Source of the DNA: Chitinophagales bacterium
GTDB lineage: Bacteria > Bacteroidota > Bacteroidia > Chitinophagales > Saprospiraceae
Length of the DNA stretch: 64,000 nt
NCBI GenBank assembly: GCA_013299105.1
Contig: JAAFJY010000001.1
Coordinates: forward strand, 328,978 to 392,977
Reading direction: 5' to 3'
Part shown: positions 9,794 through 59,802 of the stretch, in pieces
Numbering within the stretch: position 1 is the stretch's first letter
Layout: each line of letters begins with the position of its first letter
Notes under the pieces: model-generated
The model's database searches: none
The model's input: only the letters and a program-made list of their open reading frames with translations
What the model was told of the DNA's origin: nothing
Position numbers and translations under genes: made by a program

Positions 9794-10636
9794 TACCCTG
9801 ATCTATACATTCGATTAATCGCCATCCCAATCTGGGGAATCGCCTATCGCAACATTGGTGAGGTAACCCCTATCGCCAAGCTGCTCCAAGAAAAACAGTA
9901 TTACCTGGACATGGCTGTTGGAACTTTCTTTACCTGGGTGATCTGGGAGCTCAATCGTGCATTGATCCTGCGTTTTGACAAAAAATATTCTTGGGTGGAG
10001 CATTCCTTGTCCAGGGCGCTCGTACAAGGTTTGAGTTGCTTTGGGCTTTCTGCTTTGATTGTACTGATGGTCAGTTTTGTTTACAATACATATGCTGTTG
10101 ACCGCTCTCCTTATTTCAACATTGGGATAGTTTTTATGACTGATATTCCAATGGCCTTGATGTTTTTGTTGGTCATGCACTTGATTTGTACAGGCATTTG
10201 GCTATGGGAGTATCATTTGAGCGTAGTTGTAGATTTAAAAGCAAAAATAGCGAGCTTGACAGCTTCTACGCCTGAAGAGACTCAAGCGAACAATGCACCC
10301 CGTGCTTTATTGGTCAACCAAGGGAAGGCACAAATCCCGGTTTTATTGAGCGATATTGCTTATTTGCATGTAGCTGGGTCCCTTTGTGTGGTCAAAAAAA
10401 TAGATGGGCAAAGTTTCAGTCTGGACCAAAACCTGGAGCAACTAGAAGTGAGCATGCCCGCTGAAGATTTTTTTCGACTAAACCGCCAAGTCATCGCCCA
10501 CCGCCAAGCGATTCGCAAGGTAGAATCTGATGGCACGGGCCGTCTTTTGTTACAACTTTACCCACCATTTGCTGATGAAGTAAGCATCAGTCGTAAAAAA
10601 GCAATGTTATTCAAACGTTGGATGACCGGGGCTTAA
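9743..10636 (+). CDS. membrane-bound LytTR-family transcriptional regulator
   Basis: A 297-residue protein with several hydrophobic segments in its first 155 residues (around 55-75, 90-112 and 130-152, plus a weaker one near 20-37), a short coiled linker, then a C-terminal LytTR DNA-binding domain from about residue 190. LytTR features include ILLSDIAYLHVAG-like start, SLDQNLEQLE and DFFRLNRQVIAHRQAIRKVE. It lacks a receiver domain, so it is probably regulated through its membrane part. The start could instead be the ATG at 9776, giving 286 residues. Its 3' end overlaps the convergent winged-helix regulator gene by 26 bp. Confidence 0.85.
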   Translation: MTYRSVFSSNTMILRVKYPDLYIRLIAIPIWGIAYRNIGEVTPIAKLLQEKQYYLDMAVGTFFTWVIWELNRALILRFDKKYSWVEHSLSRALVQGLSCFGLSALIVLMVSFVYNTYAVDRSPYFNIGIVFMTDIPMALMFLLVMHLICTGIWLWEYHLSVVVDLKAKIASLTASTPEETQANNAPRALLVNQGKAQIPVLLSDIAYLHVAGSLCVVKKIDGQSFSLDQNLEQLEVSMPAEDFFRLNRQVIAHRQAIRKVESDGTGRLLLQLYPPFADEVSISRKKAMLFKRWMTGA

Positions 10637-11510
10637 GCTCCATCCGGTAGCCCACCCCATGCACACTGCCGATGCGAATACCCTCGTCTTCGCGCAGGAG
10701 TTTGCGCAGGCGTGACACAAATACATCCAGGCTACGTCCGATCAGTAAGTCCTCGTCGCCCCAGATGTCTTGCAAGATTTGCTCGCGTTCGAGGGCCTGG
10801 TTGGCGTGGTTGAGGAAGTAGTTGAGCAATTGGGCTTCGCGCAAGGTCAAGTCTTTTTCCTGGCCTTTTACCCAAACTTTTTGGTTGGGGAAATCAAAAT
10901 GGGATTGGCTGAATGCGCTGAGATGGGCGGGCATAGAAGAAGATTCCCGGACAGGTTTTTGCCGATTTTTCCAAAAGAAAAAGGCACTGCCAAGTCCCAG
11001 ACATAGCCCCAGCGCCAAATGCCATAGACCATCAGATCGCTTTGAAATGGCTTTCTCCAAAAGGGTGATTTTCACATTCAGACAAGCCACTGCTTGGTCG
11101 CGCCCACCACAGGGCACATTTGGATCTATGACGTATTCGCTGCCCACATAACCCAGCATTAATTCCTCATCGCGGCAGCGCAGAACCGCCACGTTGTAAT
11201 CGTTTGGGATGCGGTGACGCAGCATTGCCCGGTGCAGAATGGGCGGCAAACTATCGTACTCGAAGTGCCGCTCCAATTTCAAAAGCCAGGTATGTTCACT
11301 CAAGCGTTGTACAGGTTGAATAGTGCTTTGGGTATCGCCAGCCAAGTCCAGCAGACGGTCGCCCGTGTAACGGAGCGCCAAGTTGATGTTTTCGGCGAGT
11401 AGGGCATCCTCATCGGGGTTCGGTTTACTTTGCCAAACCGCAGATCCACCCAAAATCACCAATGCACTCAAGCCCAGCAGTAAAGCCAAATATTTGAAAG
11501 TAGCGATCAT
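10611..11510 (-). CDS. membrane-anchored OmpR-type winged-helix regulator
   Basis: A 299-residue protein with an unusual order: transmembrane helix at about 7-27, an extracytoplasmic domain of roughly 130 residues with paired cysteines, a second helix near 163-180, then a cytoplasmic Trans_reg_C winged helix from about 205 to 295 (LTLREAQLLNYFLNH, LDVFVSRLRKLLRED, IGSVHGVGYRME). There is no receiver domain, so this resembles a one-component ToxR/CadC-type sensor with the DNA-binding domain at the opposite end. An 11-bp-pitch direct repeat lies just upstream of its promoter and may be its own operator. Confidence 0.9.
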   Translation of the reverse strand: MIATFKYLALLLGLSALVILGGSAVWQSKPNPDEDALLAENINLALRYTGDRLLDLAGDTQSTIQPVQRLSEHTWLLKLERHFEYDSLPPILHRAMLRHRIPNDYNVAVLRCRDEELMLGYVGSEYVIDPNVPCGGRDQAVACLNVKITLLEKAISKRSDGLWHLALGLCLGLGSAFFFWKNRQKPVRESSSMPAHLSAFSQSHFDFPNQKVWVKGQEKDLTLREAQLLNYFLNHANQALEREQILQDIWGDEDLLIGRSLDVFVSRLRKLLREDEGIRIGSVHGVGYRMELKPRSSNV

Positions 11511-11548: not shown

Positions 11549-11578
11549 CACTTTTACATTTCCTTTACAAGGTTTTAC
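11549..11578. promoter_or_regulatory. 30-bp TTTAC direct-repeat site (copy 1), candidate operator
   Basis: Three TTTAC units start at 11553, 11564 and 11574 (pitch 11 and 10 bp). The whole 30-bp stretch recurs without a mismatch at 16217-16246. It abuts the -33 region of the winged-helix regulator promoter on the side where OmpR/PhoB-type proteins bind. The remaining bases of 11511-11803 hold no gene; the site could also serve the rightward AAA+ operon. Confidence 0.6.
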
Positions 11579-11803
11579 CCAATGATCTGGTTTTTTCCGC
11601 CTTGGTGCATGTCGAGCATTGTGCTGCTGTTATTTGTCATCCGACCCAATTCAATATCAAGGGACCAGAGCGCTTGAAAAATTAAGCCCTCAAAGTTTTT
11701 TTTAGCTGGAAACCTGTTTTACATTGCGTCGTCTAGTTCTAATAACAAAATTTGCCCCAACTGGTCTCAAGTTTACCTGACTCAATAGTAAAATTAGTAC
11801 AAC

Positions 11804-13111
11804 ATGAACGACAATACCGTTGACAGTTTACGTGAAGCACTAAAACACTCTCCTGAAAATACGCCATTGAGGCTGTTGCTGGCCGATACCTTATTGTCTT
11901 TGAACCGATTGGAGGAAGCGGAAGAAGAGTATTCAAACCTCCTGAAACGCAGCAATGACATCAAATCCAAAATCGGCTTGGCCAAAGTGTTTTTCAAAAA
12001 AGGCAACTATTCGGCTTGCAATGTGATCCTGGAAGAAGTCATTGACAATGGAGCGAGAGACATTGATGTTTTTACCCTTTATGCCAAAGGTCTCCTGCAA
12101 GAAAACGATACAGCCAAAGCCATTGAGGCTTACAAAAAAGCCCTGGCCCTGGATCCCAATTACTTTGATGAAGCCCTGGACAAGCAACTGAGGTTGAGAG
12201 GTCGTGAAGAAGTTCCTGATTTAGAGGAAGAACTGGACAGCCGGTTTTTGGAAAAACCAAATGTCAACTTCAGCGATGTAGGCGGAATGGACCTGGTCAA
12301 AAAAGAAATTGAGCTCAAGATCATCAAACCACTGCAACACCCTGAACTTTACAAGGCGTATGGCAAAAAAATAGGGGGTGGCATCCTGCTCTATGGGCCT
12401 CCGGGATGTGGAAAAACCTTCATCGCCAAGGCCACCGCTGGTGAAGTGAAAGCCCGATTCATCAGCGTAAGCTTGAATGACATCCTGGACATGTGGGTAG
12501 GCAGCAGCGAGAAGAACCTGCATGAGATCTTTGAATTGGCCCGAAACAATACCCCTTGTGTCCTGTTCATCGATGAGATTGATGCACTTGGTGCAAGTCG
12601 AAGCGACATGAAACAATCCAGCGGGCGGCACTTGATCAATCAGTTTTTACAAGAATTGGACGGTATTGACAGCTCCAACGAAGGGGTTCTGGTCATTGGC
12701 GCAACCAATACCCCTTGGAACTTGGACCCAGCGTTCAGAAGACCAGGCCGATTTGACCGCATCGTATTCGTTCCACCGCCTGATGAAGCGAGCCGAGAAT
12801 CCATCCTGAGGCTAAAACTCACCAACAAACCCACTGGAACCATCGATTTCAGAACCATTGCAAAAAAGGCAGAGCACTACTCAGGTGCCGACCTGGATGC
12901 AATCATCGATATTGCCATCGAAGAAAAACTGGAACGTGCCTTTGAAGATGGGATTCCCAAACCCCTTGAAACAAATGATTTGTTAAATGCTGTCAAAAAG
13001 CACAAACCAAGTACCCAGGAATGGTTTTCTACGGCCAAAAACTTCGCCTTGTTTGCCAATGACTCTGGGCTTTATGATGACATTTTAACTTACCTGAAAA
13101 TAAAGAAGTAA
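11804..13111 (+). CDS. TPR-AAA+ ATPase (Cdc48/FtsH-like AAA module)
   Basis: A 435-residue cytoplasmic protein. Residues 1-125 form about three TPR-like helical hairpins, residues 150-430 a single classical AAA domain with lid. Walker A is GPPGCGKT (198-205), Walker B VLFIDEID (253-260), sensor 1 Asn302, and arginine fingers lie in FRRPGRFDR (311-319). There is no protease domain and only one AAA ring, so it is probably a protein-remodelling ATPase with TPRs choosing partners or substrates. The next gene starts 1 bp after its stop (TAAGATG), implying translational coupling to a TPR membrane protein that may be its anchor. Confidence 0.9.
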   Translation: MNDNTVDSLREALKHSPENTPLRLLLADTLLSLNRLEEAEEEYSNLLKRSNDIKSKIGLAKVFFKKGNYSACNVILEEVIDNGARDIDVFTLYAKGLLQENDTAKAIEAYKKALALDPNYFDEALDKQLRLRGREEVPDLEEELDSRFLEKPNVNFSDVGGMDLVKKEIELKIIKPLQHPELYKAYGKKIGGGILLYGPPGCGKTFIAKATAGEVKARFISVSLNDILDMWVGSSEKNLHEIFELARNNTPCVLFIDEIDALGASRSDMKQSSGRHLINQFLQELDGIDSSNEGVLVIGATNTPWNLDPAFRRPGRFDRIVFVPPPDEASRESILRLKLTNKPTGTIDFRTIAKKAEHYSGADLDAIIDIAIEEKLERAFEDGIPKPLETNDLLNAVKKHKPSTQEWFSTAKNFALFANDSGLYDDILTYLKIKK

Positions 13112-13112
13112 G

Positions 13113-14369
13113 ATGAAAGAAGATCCCAGAGTTACAAGGGTCGGTGTACTGATGGAGCAGAATAGGTTTGCGGAAGCAGAGAAAATTCTTGCGGAGTTAC
13201 TGGCTGATTACCCCAATGATGCCCTTTACTTGTATTTGCTTGCCGAGGTGTGTTTGCAACAAGATAAACATGAAAAAGCAGGCCATTTCGCTGACCTTGC
13301 ACTTGGCATCAATCCCGATGATTCAGATTTGTACTATGTCAAATCAAGGATTGCCGCTGACCAAGAAAAAATGGATGTCGCTGAAAAATTCATCGAGCAA
13401 GCCATCGGAATAGACCCAAGAGACGCGAACTATTTTGCTTTTTGGGCCAGCATTAAGTTGGTGCGGAAGCAGTACGGAGAAGCCCTTGAAATTGCAAATC
13501 GTGCCTTAGAGCTTGATGCAGAAAACCTACTGGCCCTCAATACCAGAAGTACTGCACTAAACAAACTGGATAGGAGTGAGGAGGCTTTTGCCACAATTGA
13601 AGGTGCTTTGCGCGAAGATCCAAACAACCCGCATACCCACACTGGTTATGGTTGGGGGCTTTTGGAGAAAGGTGACCACAAAAAAGCATTGGAGCACTTC
13701 AAGGAGGCTTTAAAAAATGATCCTTCGCTAAAATATGCCCAAATGGGGATGCTTGAGGCGATCAAAGCAGCAAATCCTATTTATCGAGTCTTTCTGAAGT
13801 ATGCTTTCTGGATTAGTAACCTTACCGCCAAATACCAGTGGGGTGTTATCCTTGGCTTTTATTTTGGCTTTCGCGCTTTGAAAGTCTTGGCAAAAAATAG
13901 TCCAAGCCTTGAGCCTTACCTTACTCCGTTGATCATTTTACTTGGCGTGCTGGCGTTTTCTACCTGGATCATTACCCCAATCAGCAACTTGTTCCTGAGG
14001 TTCAACAAATACGGGCAACTACTGCTTGACGAAGCAGAAAAAAAGAGTTCAAATTTTGTTGCCTTGAGCCTGGGCTTGTCTGTTCTAGGTGCAGTGCTTT
14101 ACTTTGCCTTAAAAGACGAGCGATTTTTATCCATTGCCGTATTTGGATTCACCATGATGCTGCCCTTGGGTTCCATGTTTTCCCAGGGCAGTGGTAATGC
14201 AACATTGCGGATTTATACCATTTCCCTGGCCGTTGTGGGGGCCCTGGCCATCGGCGTGACTTTTTTGACTGGGGTATTGGTCAACTTATTTAGCCTGATT
14301 TTTATCCTGGGCTTCATCGGCTTTCAATGGGTAGCAAACTATTTTTCCATCAAAAACAGCAATTATTGA
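13113..14369 (+). CDS. TPR membrane protein, copy 1
   Basis: A 418-residue protein: residues 1-225 are a run of about six TPR repeats (for example AEKFIEQAIGIDPRDANYFAFWA and NTRSTALNKLDRSEEAFATIEGAL), followed by four or five predicted transmembrane helices between about 235 and 415. The TPRs are probably cytoplasmic and the C-terminal half an integral membrane domain of unknown function. It is coupled to the TPR-AAA+ gene by a 1-bp gap. A paralogue of exactly the same length follows; their last ~115 residues differ at a single position. Confidence 0.85.
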   Translation: MKEDPRVTRVGVLMEQNRFAEAEKILAELLADYPNDALYLYLLAEVCLQQDKHEKAGHFADLALGINPDDSDLYYVKSRIAADQEKMDVAEKFIEQAIGIDPRDANYFAFWASIKLVRKQYGEALEIANRALELDAENLLALNTRSTALNKLDRSEEAFATIEGALREDPNNPHTHTGYGWGLLEKGDHKKALEHFKEALKNDPSLKYAQMGMLEAIKAANPIYRVFLKYAFWISNLTAKYQWGVILGFYFGFRALKVLAKNSPSLEPYLTPLIILLGVLAFSTWIITPISNLFLRFNKYGQLLLDEAEKKSSNFVALSLGLSVLGAVLYFALKDERFLSIAVFGFTMMLPLGSMFSQGSGNATLRIYTISLAVVGALAIGVTFLTGVLVNLFSLIFILGFIGFQWVANYFSIKNSNY

Positions 14370-14376
14370 GTTGTCA
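14037..14376 (+). repeat. near-identical duplicated block, copy 1
   Basis: About 340 bp covering the 3' end of TPR gene copy 1 align without gaps to 15365-15704 at a constant offset of 1328 bp. Only about six mismatches were found by eye. Sequence upstream of the block in the two genes is strongly diverged. Confidence 0.95.
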
Positions 14377-14440
14377 AGATCATTTTACTAGACATTCATG
14401 GGTATGGTGATATTTTCATTTGTTAAACAATCAAAACACA

Positions 14441-15697
14441 ATGAAAAGAGATTATAAATTTTGGAAAGTCTATCTACTTTTGAGACAAAACAGATTCTCC
14501 AACGCAGAGAAATTACTTTTAGAATTACTTCCTGAAGATCCGAATAATACGAATGGCCTTGCCCTGCTTGCAGAAATCTATTTTCAGCAAGACAAATATG
14601 TGAAAGCAGATAAGGTTATCAATAATGCTATTAGCCTTGCCCCTAAAGACCCTGACCTGCACTACATTAAAGCCCGAATCGCATTACAGCAAGATGAAAT
14701 GAAAGAAGCAGAAGAATTTACTATGCAGGCAATCAAGTTAAATCCTCAAGTTGCCGAATATTTTGGCTTTTTAGCCTCCATACAACTGATCCGCAAAGAA
14801 TACAGCCAAGCACTTGTAACTGCAAATAAAGCTTTGCAAATTGATGCTAAAGACTTACTTGCAATTAATGTCAGAAGTACAACTTTGACCAAACTCAAAA
14901 GAAATATTGAAGCATTTGAAACAATCGAAGGTGCTTTAAAGGAGGATCCAAACAACGCCCATACTCATGCTAACTACGGATGGTTGCTTTTGGAGAAAGG
15001 AGACCATAAAAAAGCTTTGAAACATTTTAATGAAGCATTGAAAAGTAATCCCTCATTTGAATATGCCCATTCAGGATTTCTCGAAGCAATGAAGGCACGT
15101 AATCCATTTTATAAAATTCTCTTGAAATATTCTTTCTGGATCGGTAACTTATCGGCAAAGTATCAATGGGTGGTTTTAATTTTAATTTTTTTAATTTTTA
15201 ATTTTTTTAACTCTTTAATTCAAAACAACAAGGCATTTCAACCTTACTTAACACCATTTGTTATTGGACTTTCAATAGTTATATTTTTTACTTGGATCAT
15301 CACTCCAATTAGCAACATGTTTCTAAGGTTTAATAAGTATGGACAATTACTGCTCAATGAGGAAGAAAAAAAGAGTTCAAATTTTGTTGCCTTGAGCCTG
15401 GGCTTGTCCCTTCTAGGTGCAGTGCTTTACTTTGCCTTAAAAGACGAGCGATTTTTATCCATTGCCGTATTTGGATTCACCATGATGCTGCCCTTGGGTT
15501 CCATGTTTTCCCAGGGCAGTGGTAATGCAACATTGCGGATTTATACCATTTCCCTGGCCGTTGTGGGGGCCCTGGCCATCGGCGTGACTTTTTTGACTGG
15601 GGTATTGGTCAACTTATTTAGCCTGATTTTTATCCTGGGCTTTATCGGCTTTCAATGGGTAGCAAACTATTTTTCCATCAAGAATAGTAATTATTGA
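14441..15697 (+). CDS. TPR membrane protein, copy 2
   Basis: A 418-residue paralogue of the preceding gene. The ATG at 14441 is chosen because it aligns with the first residue of copy 1 and gives an identical length; a TTG at 14420 is the alternative. TPR repeats fill residues 1-225 and membrane helices the rest. The first ~310 residues are moderately conserved and encoded by DNA visibly richer in A and T than copy 1 (lysine AAA, isoleucine ATT/ATC and asparagine AAT codons abound). The last ~115 residues are essentially identical in protein and DNA. This points to recent gene conversion between an old duplicate pair. Confidence 0.85.
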   Translation: MKRDYKFWKVYLLLRQNRFSNAEKLLLELLPEDPNNTNGLALLAEIYFQQDKYVKADKVINNAISLAPKDPDLHYIKARIALQQDEMKEAEEFTMQAIKLNPQVAEYFGFLASIQLIRKEYSQALVTANKALQIDAKDLLAINVRSTTLTKLKRNIEAFETIEGALKEDPNNAHTHANYGWLLLEKGDHKKALKHFNEALKSNPSFEYAHSGFLEAMKARNPFYKILLKYSFWIGNLSAKYQWVVLILIFLIFNFFNSLIQNNKAFQPYLTPFVIGLSIVIFFTWIITPISNMFLRFNKYGQLLLNEEEKKSSNFVALSLGLSLLGAVLYFALKDERFLSIAVFGFTMMLPLGSMFSQGSGNATLRIYTISLAVVGALAIGVTFLTGVLVNLFSLIFILGFIGFQWVANYFSIKNSNY

Positions 15698-15704
15698 GTT
15701 GCCA
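15365..15704 (+). repeat. near-identical duplicated block, copy 2
   Basis: Partner of 14037-14376. Mismatches are a two-base change turning a valine codon into leucine, one silent change, and three silent changes in the last codons. The block ends a few bases after the stop codon. Confidence 0.95.
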
Positions 15705-15724
15705 AGGGAGCATAAAAAAATAGG

Positions 15725-15950
15725 CTCAATGTGGGTTTCAAGTTGAAAAAGACTTGGGCGTTTGTCTTGACCTAAGCCAAGGTGAGTTTTGGGTTTGCGA
15801 AGTTCGATTTTTTGACTTACGACTTACGAGTGACAACTTACGACTTACGAAGTAGGGGCTCGCTGGCAAGACCTTAGGGTGCTTAGGCTCCCATTTTCAC
15901 GGTTTGATATTTTTGAGTTAATCTCAGCTTTGACATGTTTGTAAAACATT
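15725..15950 (+). repeat. dispersed repeat family A, full-length copy
   Basis: Starts with a segment containing GGGTTTCAAGTTGAAAAA, continues through TTTTTTGACTTACGACTTACG units to GTAGGGGCTCGCTGG, then a tail with TTCACGGTTTGATATTTTTGA. It matches the reverse complement of 965-1180 along its full length. The region 15698-16328 contains no supported gene. Confidence 0.8.
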
Positions 15951-16009
15951 GAAAAACAATTATTTAAAATCGTTTTTCGCGTCCGCTAAAGATGCAATAA
16001 AATTGACTG

Positions 16010-16200
16010 AGCTATTTTATTGGGAAAACTTGAATCGTAAAAAAGATGACTTGCTGCACCACAAATTTTCAATCGAAGCGCTACTTCGTAAGTCGTCATT
16101 CGTAAGTCGTCACTCAAAAAAAGTCTTGGAGCTTGATGACCGCAACCAATTCGTTTTGAAGCACCACTTGAAACCCAATAAGAGCCCAAAAATATTTTAG
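16010..16200 (-). repeat. dispersed repeat family A variant, inverted copy
   Basis: Read on the minus strand it matches 690-895 (GGCTCTTATTGGGTTTCAAG, then tandem GACGACTTACGA units, CTTCGATTGAAAATTTGTGG and ACGATTCAAGTTTTCCCA) at roughly 85% identity by eye. It faces the copy at 15725-15950 tail to tail. Confidence 0.8.
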
Positions 16201-16216
16201 CTCAGATCCTAAATGT

Positions 16217-16266
16217 CACTTTTACATTTCCTTTACAAGGTTTTACTTGCCTTTTACTAGCTTTAC
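16217..16266 (+). promoter_or_regulatory. TTTAC direct-repeat array (copy 2), candidate operator
   Basis: Bases 16217-16246 are identical to 11549-11578, and two further TTTAC units follow, giving units at 16221, 16232, 16242, 16253 and 16262 (pitch 11, 10, 11, 9). The array ends 62 bp before the start of the small secreted-protein gene. A weak -7-like CACATTTG is at 16279-16286. Confidence 0.6.
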
Positions 16267-16328: not shown

Positions 16329-16739
16329 ATGAACAAATTCAAAATGCCCTTTTTGGGCCTGGTGTTGCTCTTTTGCCTGGAATCAAAAGCACAAAACGAT
16401 TTCAACAACTGCACAGCCGTATTGCTCAATGCCAATTTGATTGTGGATGAATATTCCCCATCGGGTACTTGTCGGATTTCCGCCGATGCCGTTGGGAAAA
16501 TTACCGTTGAACCCGTGACCTTGGAAGAAGGCGGCAAAACCTTGCCCCAGGGCAAACGCCGTTTCAAAGTGGCCATCCGCGATGGCAACACCAAAACCCT
16601 CATGTCTTTTTCGGATAAAACCTATACCGAGATTGCCATCCAAGACCTGCTGAAAGCATGCAAAAAAGGCGATTACATTGTATTCATGACCTTGGATCGC
16701 GATTTGGCCTTGCCCCACAATGAAGTGTTGGTGGAGTGA
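16329..16739 (+). CDS. small exported hypothetical protein
   Basis: A 136-residue protein with a signal peptide (MNKFKMPFLGLVLLFCLESKAQ) and a mature part of about 114 residues with three cysteines and a beta-rich pattern (GKITVEPVTLEEG, RRFKVAIRDGN). No known family is recognised. Its upstream region carries the same 30-bp direct-repeat site found at the promoter of the membrane-anchored winged-helix regulator, so it is the best candidate target of that regulator in this window. Confidence 0.7.
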   Translation: MNKFKMPFLGLVLLFCLESKAQNDFNNCTAVLLNANLIVDEYSPSGTCRISADAVGKITVEPVTLEEGGKTLPQGKRRFKVAIRDGNTKTLMSFSDKTYTEIAIQDLLKACKKGDYIVFMTLDRDLALPHNEVLVE

Positions 16740-58956: not shown

Positions 58957-59802
58957 ATGGCAAATCAATTTGGTGGCAAATGGACAAAAGATAAGATTGA
59001 AACTTTTGTCAAATACACAAAAGCATACTTAGAAATAATGAAAGACAGGCCGTATTTTTCATTAATCTATTTTGATGGTTTTGCTGGCTCTGGTGCCATC
59101 ATGCAAGATGGCAATGATTATGACTTACTAGAGGGGGTGGCTAAACAGGTTCTCGATATTGACCAACCTCGTATATTCGATATTTATTATTTTGTTGAGA
59201 AGGATCAAAACAATCAAACGACATTAGAGGCTATGGTCAAATCACAATACCCAAATCGCAATGCTTTTGTAGTTTGCAATGACTGTAATAATCGTCTCCT
59301 AACAATGGCACAATTTCTAAATCGCCCTCAAAACAAAAAATACAAAGTACTTGCCTTTATTGATCCTTATGGAATGCAAGTAAAATGGTCTTCTCTGGAA
59401 GCTTTGAAAGATCTGAGTATCGATATGTGGATACTAGTTCCAACAGGATTAGGGGTTACGCGACTTTTAAAAAACAATGGTGAGATAGAGGACAGCCTTA
59501 TGGAGCGGTTAAAAACTTTCCTCGGTCTTGGATCAGAAGAAATAAAAAACTATTTTTACAAATCAGTTTCTACGACCAATTTATTTGGAGAGGATGAAAC
59601 ACTTTTGGTCAAAGAAAGAAGGATTGCCCAAAAAGCAGCAGAACTTTACCGCGAACGCTTAAATTCGATTTTCAAGCACGTGTCAAAACCTTTGCAGATG
59701 ACCAATTCAAAGGGTTCCATTATGTACCATTTTCTAATGTGCTCCAACAACAGAGTTGCGGCTAAGATAGCAAATGATATTGTGACTCCAAAATTCAGAT
59801 AA
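58957..59802 (+). CDS. tcmP: three-Cys-motif partner protein (TcmP family)
   Basis: A 281-residue protein from the ATG at 58957; an upstream start would add only an AT-rich low-complexity stretch. The N-terminus (GGKWTKDKIETFVKYTKAYL) and the DGFAGSG motif at residues 40-46 with FIDPYG at 134-139 are typical of TcmP. These two motifs resemble motifs I and IV of class I methyltransferases; that resemblance is my inference. The function is unknown. It overlaps nothing and is followed after 2 bp by its usual partner. Base composition is clearly more AT-rich than the neighbours, suggesting transfer. Confidence 0.88.
   Translation: MANQFGGKWTKDKIETFVKYTKAYLEIMKDRPYFSLIYFDGFAGSGAIMQDGNDYDLLEGVAKQVLDIDQPRIFDIYYFVEKDQNNQTTLEAMVKSQYPNRNAFVVCNDCNNRLLTMAQFLNRPQNKKYKVLAFIDPYGMQVKWSSLEALKDLSIDMWILVPTGLGVTRLLKNNGEIEDSLMERLKTFLGLGSEEIKNYFYKSVSTTNLFGEDETLLVKERRIAQKAAELYRERLNSIFKHVSKPLQMTNSKGSIMYHFLMCSNNRVAAKIANDIVTPKFR

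Follow-up and report, generated by a model that had tools for sequence, protein, structure and literature searches.

Two neighbouring genes in the window (the whole 64,000-nucleotide stretch of DNA analysed here) raise the question of how two coding sequences that differ over most of their length can be nearly the same at their 3' ends. The genes, designated A and B, lie head to tail with 71 bases between them (Table 1), and both belong to the family of TPR-membrane partners of a CDC48-like AAA ATPase, within which they diverged long ago. The sequence-only reading of this DNA had described two 418-codon paralogues, strongly diverged over the first ~310 codons, with the last ~340 bp free of gaps and carrying about six mostly silent mismatches; a sharp boundary near 14037/15365 and bases shared past the stop codons it took as traces of gene conversion or a crossover. 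The coordinates and lengths in that description are correct, and A and B, with 418 codons each, align without a single gap.

Table 1. Features of the operon and of the shared block (positions in the window)
Feature	Position	Strand	Remarks
Inserted segment: ATPase, A, B, MITE-like repeat	11579..16216	+	in all four same-genus genomes the two flanking genes lie divergently side by side
Left 30-bp repeat copy	11549..11578	+	partial TTTAC array, three repeats
ATPase, TPR + CDC48/p97-type AAA, 435 aa	11804..13111	+	first operon gene; Pfam AAA 1.5e-44 + TPR
Gene A	13113..14369	+	TPR part at about residues 5-220 and six predicted TM helices; usual ATPase partner, likely patch donor
Conversion tract in A	14036..14353	+	318 nt with 3 mismatches; codons 309-413 (TM3 and most of TM6); placed by breakpoint fit and silent-site counts
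Tail of weaker A-B similarity, A side	14354..14378	+	4 mismatches/25 nt; ends 9 nt beyond A stop codon
Gene B	14441..15697	+	tandem second copy; AT-rich, diverged codons 1-308; likely recipient
Conversion tract in B	15364..15681	+	copy of 14036-14353
Matching tail, end of B	15682..15706	+	
Right 30-bp repeat copy	16217..16246	+	complete TTTAC array, five repeats, as in relatives

Extent and edges of the near-identical block

A one-breakpoint likelihood fit placed the 5' boundary at 14036/15364 (2dlnL 209.5), with mismatches at 346 of the 923 bases before it and at 6 of the 334 bases after it, which bears out the strong divergence, the near identity and the sharp boundary described beforehand. 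Counted in 60-base windows, mismatches range from 13 to 30 up to about codon 300 and then fall to 7, to 2 and to 0 in three windows, with 4 in the last. The six coding mismatches inside the block lie at positions 14081, 14082, 14315, 14354, 14357 and 14360; among the 110 residues compared they change only one (V324L), and the longest perfectly identical run is 232 bp. At the protein level, A and B share 57% of residues over codons 1-215, 57% over codons 216-308 and 99% over codons 309-418. The sliding-window and silent-site comparison that the sequence-only reading had proposed gave the same picture, with silent divergence collapsing at 14036/15364: among codons specifying the same residue, 97 of 169 are silently changed in codons 1-308 and 2 of 100 in codons 309-413 (P-value = 1.6e-23, Fisher test). 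Silent codons stay unchanged for up to 73 in a row, whereas 20,000 shuffles gave a mean maximum of 10.6 and a largest value of 30. The upstream edge lies just beyond the stretch encoding the conserved motif TWIITPISNLFLRFNKYGQLLLD, where the two genes are still fairly alike.

There is also a 3' edge, at about 14353/15681 and inside the gene, beyond which 3 of 5 silent codons (codons 414-418) are changed (P-value = 5e-4 against the 2 of 100, Fisher test, from few codons). From the stop codon onward A and B agree at 11 of 12 bases (TGAGTTG[T/C]CAAG), a sequence that is absent in relatives, and the DNA match then stops at 14378. The sharing past the stop codons is thus real, but the near-identical core has already ended before them; the shared bases and the tail are to be explained by a second and older event or by common descent of the 3' flank. 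The genome holds exactly two copies of the block, and no further copy was found elsewhere in it.

An AlphaFold2 model from a 50-sequence alignment (mean pLDDT 91.9, pTM 0.78) shows a TPR solenoid at residues 5-220, a long helix at 222-262 bearing TM1, TM2 within 267-296, TM3 at 307-333, TM4 at 337-354, TM5 at 362-386 and TM6 at 392-417, the TM labels being a reading of the predicted helices together with a hydropathy scan. The tract begins at the foot of predicted TM3 and covers most of TM6, leaving TM1 and TM2 outside. The earlier idea of one identical membrane domain on both proteins therefore holds for TM3-TM6 (309-413) and fails for TM1-TM2: these fall in the diverged part and, with 57% identity over codons 216-308, differ between A and B as much as the TPR part does. 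The two proteins thus have no whole membrane domain in common. No Pfam family matched the membrane part of the partner, and a PDB fold search returned TPR folds only, which is uninformative on that part.

Origin of the block and direction of copying

We consider it very probable that A and B are old diverged paralogues and that a recent recombination put about 320 bases of A onto B non-reciprocally, by gene conversion. The sequence comparison strongly supports a recent homogenisation through recombination, with three signs of gene conversion occurring together: silent-site likeness far above that of the surroundings, phylogenetic conflict, and two edges in homologous sequence. In the maximum-likelihood tree of codons 1-308, A and B are 1.26 changes per site apart (end branches 0.48 for A and 0.78 for B) and form weak sisters (84/33), while in the tree of codons 309-418 their distance is 0.009 with support of 100/100; the conflict between tract and flank is one of depth and not clearly of topology. 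Of the two processes named by the sequence-only reading, conversion is the better fit, since both edges of the core fall within homologous coding sequence, which a crossover explains less well. Homologous recombination would have taken place between the close direct repeats A and B, with its 5' edge just after the conserved motif; about 320 bases of A would have overwritten the corresponding part of B with no reciprocal exchange, and the resulting B would carry its own TPR part and TM1-TM2 fused to the TM3-TM6 of A.

On composition alone, the most likely direction of copying is from A to B. GC3 in A is 0.46 over codons 1-308 and 0.53 over the remainder, while in B the values are 0.31 and 0.52; among window genes of at least 250 codons the mean is 0.55 (SD 0.07). 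The first 308 codons of B lie more than 3 SD below this mean and its shared block does not, for which the simplest reading has A as the donor and B as the recipient. That the second copy is AT-richer in its diverged part had been noticed from the letters, and the AT-richness indeed ends at the boundary. The version in the near relative G324 is also AT-rich (GC3 0.27-0.30), and such versions in other genomes hint at a foreign origin of the first part of B. B itself may stem from an old duplication or from an outside source, both compatible with the weak sister support. Apart from B, the sole window ORF of at least 250 codons with a similarly low GC3 (0.34) is the open frame at 58957-59799, which was possibly also acquired.

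A history in which A was duplicated in tandem and an AT-rich foreign homologue then replaced codons 1-308 of the second copy, leaving the block as a remnant of the duplicate, is improbable. A leftover duplicate should be evenly similar through to its end, but the 3' edge lies inside the gene and the silent sites of codons 414-418 are as diverged as those of codons 1-308; the foreign piece must also have joined exactly in frame. This history would account for a first part of B compositionally unlike the genome and for the sharing that extends past the stop, and it suits a horizontally mobile module, whose ATPase is closer to that of another genus (85%) than to those of its own (55-56%).

That reads from the 3' end of A were used for both copies during assembly is very improbable, even in a genome of 77 contigs with a perfectly identical stretch of 232 bp. 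Seven A/B differences, one of them changing a residue, fall within 15364-15706, the unlike halves and their flanks are joined within one contig, and the block was found exactly twice; a false join would itself require common sequence at the boundary.

Among 118 homologues, the mean pairwise identity over codons 301-418 is 0.28-0.38, a variability approached only by codons 1-120 (0.32-0.38), while A and B reach 0.90-1.00 in the former region; A and the near relative G324 share 66% of residues over codons 1-215, 74% over codons 216-308 and just 55% over codons 309-418. Purifying selection keeping the C-terminal membrane parts of A and B alike, the refuting alternative named by the sequence-only reading and one that a single differing residue in 110 might suggest, thus has next to no chance, and as a sole cause it is ruled out by silent-site identity within a block that ranks with the family's most variable regions. 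Homologues of the same genus are only 34-37% identical.

Tandem second TPR-TM copies are also found at four other loci (L109, L131, L158 and L159). None of these four pairs shows a 3' identity peak, and the patch in A and B looks like a single event.

The ATPase module and its insertion into the genus

Gene A lies directly behind the ATPase gene, and the pair of ATPase and TPR-TM gene is kept in 77 of 80 Bacteroidota loci. No conserved neighbours were found beyond the pair, the next cluster occurring in 8 of the 80 loci, and the two genes form an isolated two-gene module. The best solved relatives of the ATPase are CDC48/p97. At the thresholds used, a homologue is present in 118 of the 398 genomes of the family and in 8 of the 395 of the phylum, the tree follows taxonomy poorly, and the ATPase is 55-56% identical to that of same-genus genomes against 85% in one genome from a different genus. 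Across Bacteroidota the module has a patchy distribution and is mobile. Relatives on plasmids were not found, and limited searching of the literature for the ATPase/TPR pair returned nothing relevant and no description; the module is widespread and apparently undescribed.

Two irregular loci were noted among the homologues. In G646, an open frame of 1140 aa suggested that the ATPase and the TPR-TM protein were fused; this was discarded, as the frame looks like a GC-rich ORF artefact and has no adjoining ATPase. At L077 (4670-5996) an otherwise intact TPR-TM gene follows an ATPase gene that is broken into two open frames.

In this genus, the entire operon is inserted DNA. An exact 30-bp direct repeat, CACTTTTACATTTCCTTTACAAGGTTTTAC, bounds the segment with the ATPase, A and B and occurs at only these two sites in the genome (up to 3 mismatches allowed). 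On either side lie a Trans_reg_C regulator gene (10611-11510) and a gene for a 136-aa protein (16329-16739). In all four same-genus genomes (4/4) the site is empty, with a short common promoter region and a single TTTAC array between the flanking genes. The left flank matches the promoter region of the relatives as far as about 11580, and the match of the right flank starts at about 16220. In the relatives these matches have about 30 bp in common, so the segment between the flanks was inserted with duplication of 30 bp of the array. The array is a putative operator of the adjacent regulator. Insertion into the divergent promoter thus left part of the regulatory array in duplicate, one copy on each side, and this shows how the module arrived.

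No terminal inverted repeats were obvious by eye where the insert begins and ends. For a transposase, a duplication of 30 bp would be long; the insertion may, for example, have come about through repair of a break with widely staggered ends. Since the module came from outside, the conversion may predate or postdate its transfer.

A MITE-like repeat of about 470 bp (15721-16190) begins 23 nt downstream of B and has imperfect terminal inverted repeats (GGCTC...GAGCC). Several more long copies occur in the genome at 87-100% identity, three of them at 99-100%, together with many diverged or partial ones, and some copies have apparent 8-bp target duplications (TAAGTTTT in L168, TTGTTCTT in L171).

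Possible function and comparison with known systems

Judging from domain architecture, the TPR-TM partner would tether the ATPase to the membrane, and the ATPase would unfold or extract proteins selected through the TPR parts, with B serving as a second adaptor. We speculate that one and the same ATPase is anchored or guided at the membrane by the proteins of both A and B. An adaptive reading of the conversion, in which TM3-TM6 is the part recognised by the ATPase and copying it re-tethered a diverged or foreign TPR adaptor B, is unlikely; if it were true, one unfoldase would have two membrane-bound substrate adaptors. Whatever its effect, the case draws attention to a compact module of a TPR-CDC48-type AAA ATPase and a TPR/six-TM partner.

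The AAA domain of the upstream gene matches IetA of the IetAS anti-phage system (PADLOC 7.9e-38). However, the partner in IetAS is a protease, whereas here it is a TPR-membrane protein: no IetS protease stands beside the ATPase, the gene directly downstream being the TPR-TM gene with no third gene in more than 8 of 80 loci. The ATPase scores 124.1 bits against NCBIfam NF042959, far under the cut-off of 510. Because the IetA-like matches are this far below the curated cut-off, the label of a defence system was dropped for the module.

A closer parallel in form is offered by the mammalian tandem genes TLR1 and TLR6, in which nine species show independent gene conversion at nearly the same position (PMC2077338). 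There, too, tandem paralogues are homogenised in a C-proximal part that includes the membrane region while the N-terminal recognition part diverges. In the present family, by contrast, the patch is seen once, and the four other tandem pairs, lacking a 3' identity peak, give no sign of such recurrence. In the concerted evolution of prokaryotic paralogues, genes evolve in concert over very long times (PMC6053082); A and B resemble these in that paralogues of one genome are closer to each other than orthologues are, but differ in that the likeness is confined to one 318-nt patch in one genome. A gene-conversion patch is a known kind of event, clean but ordinary, and this one would provide a clear natural case in which conversion grafts part of the membrane domain of one paralogue onto another.
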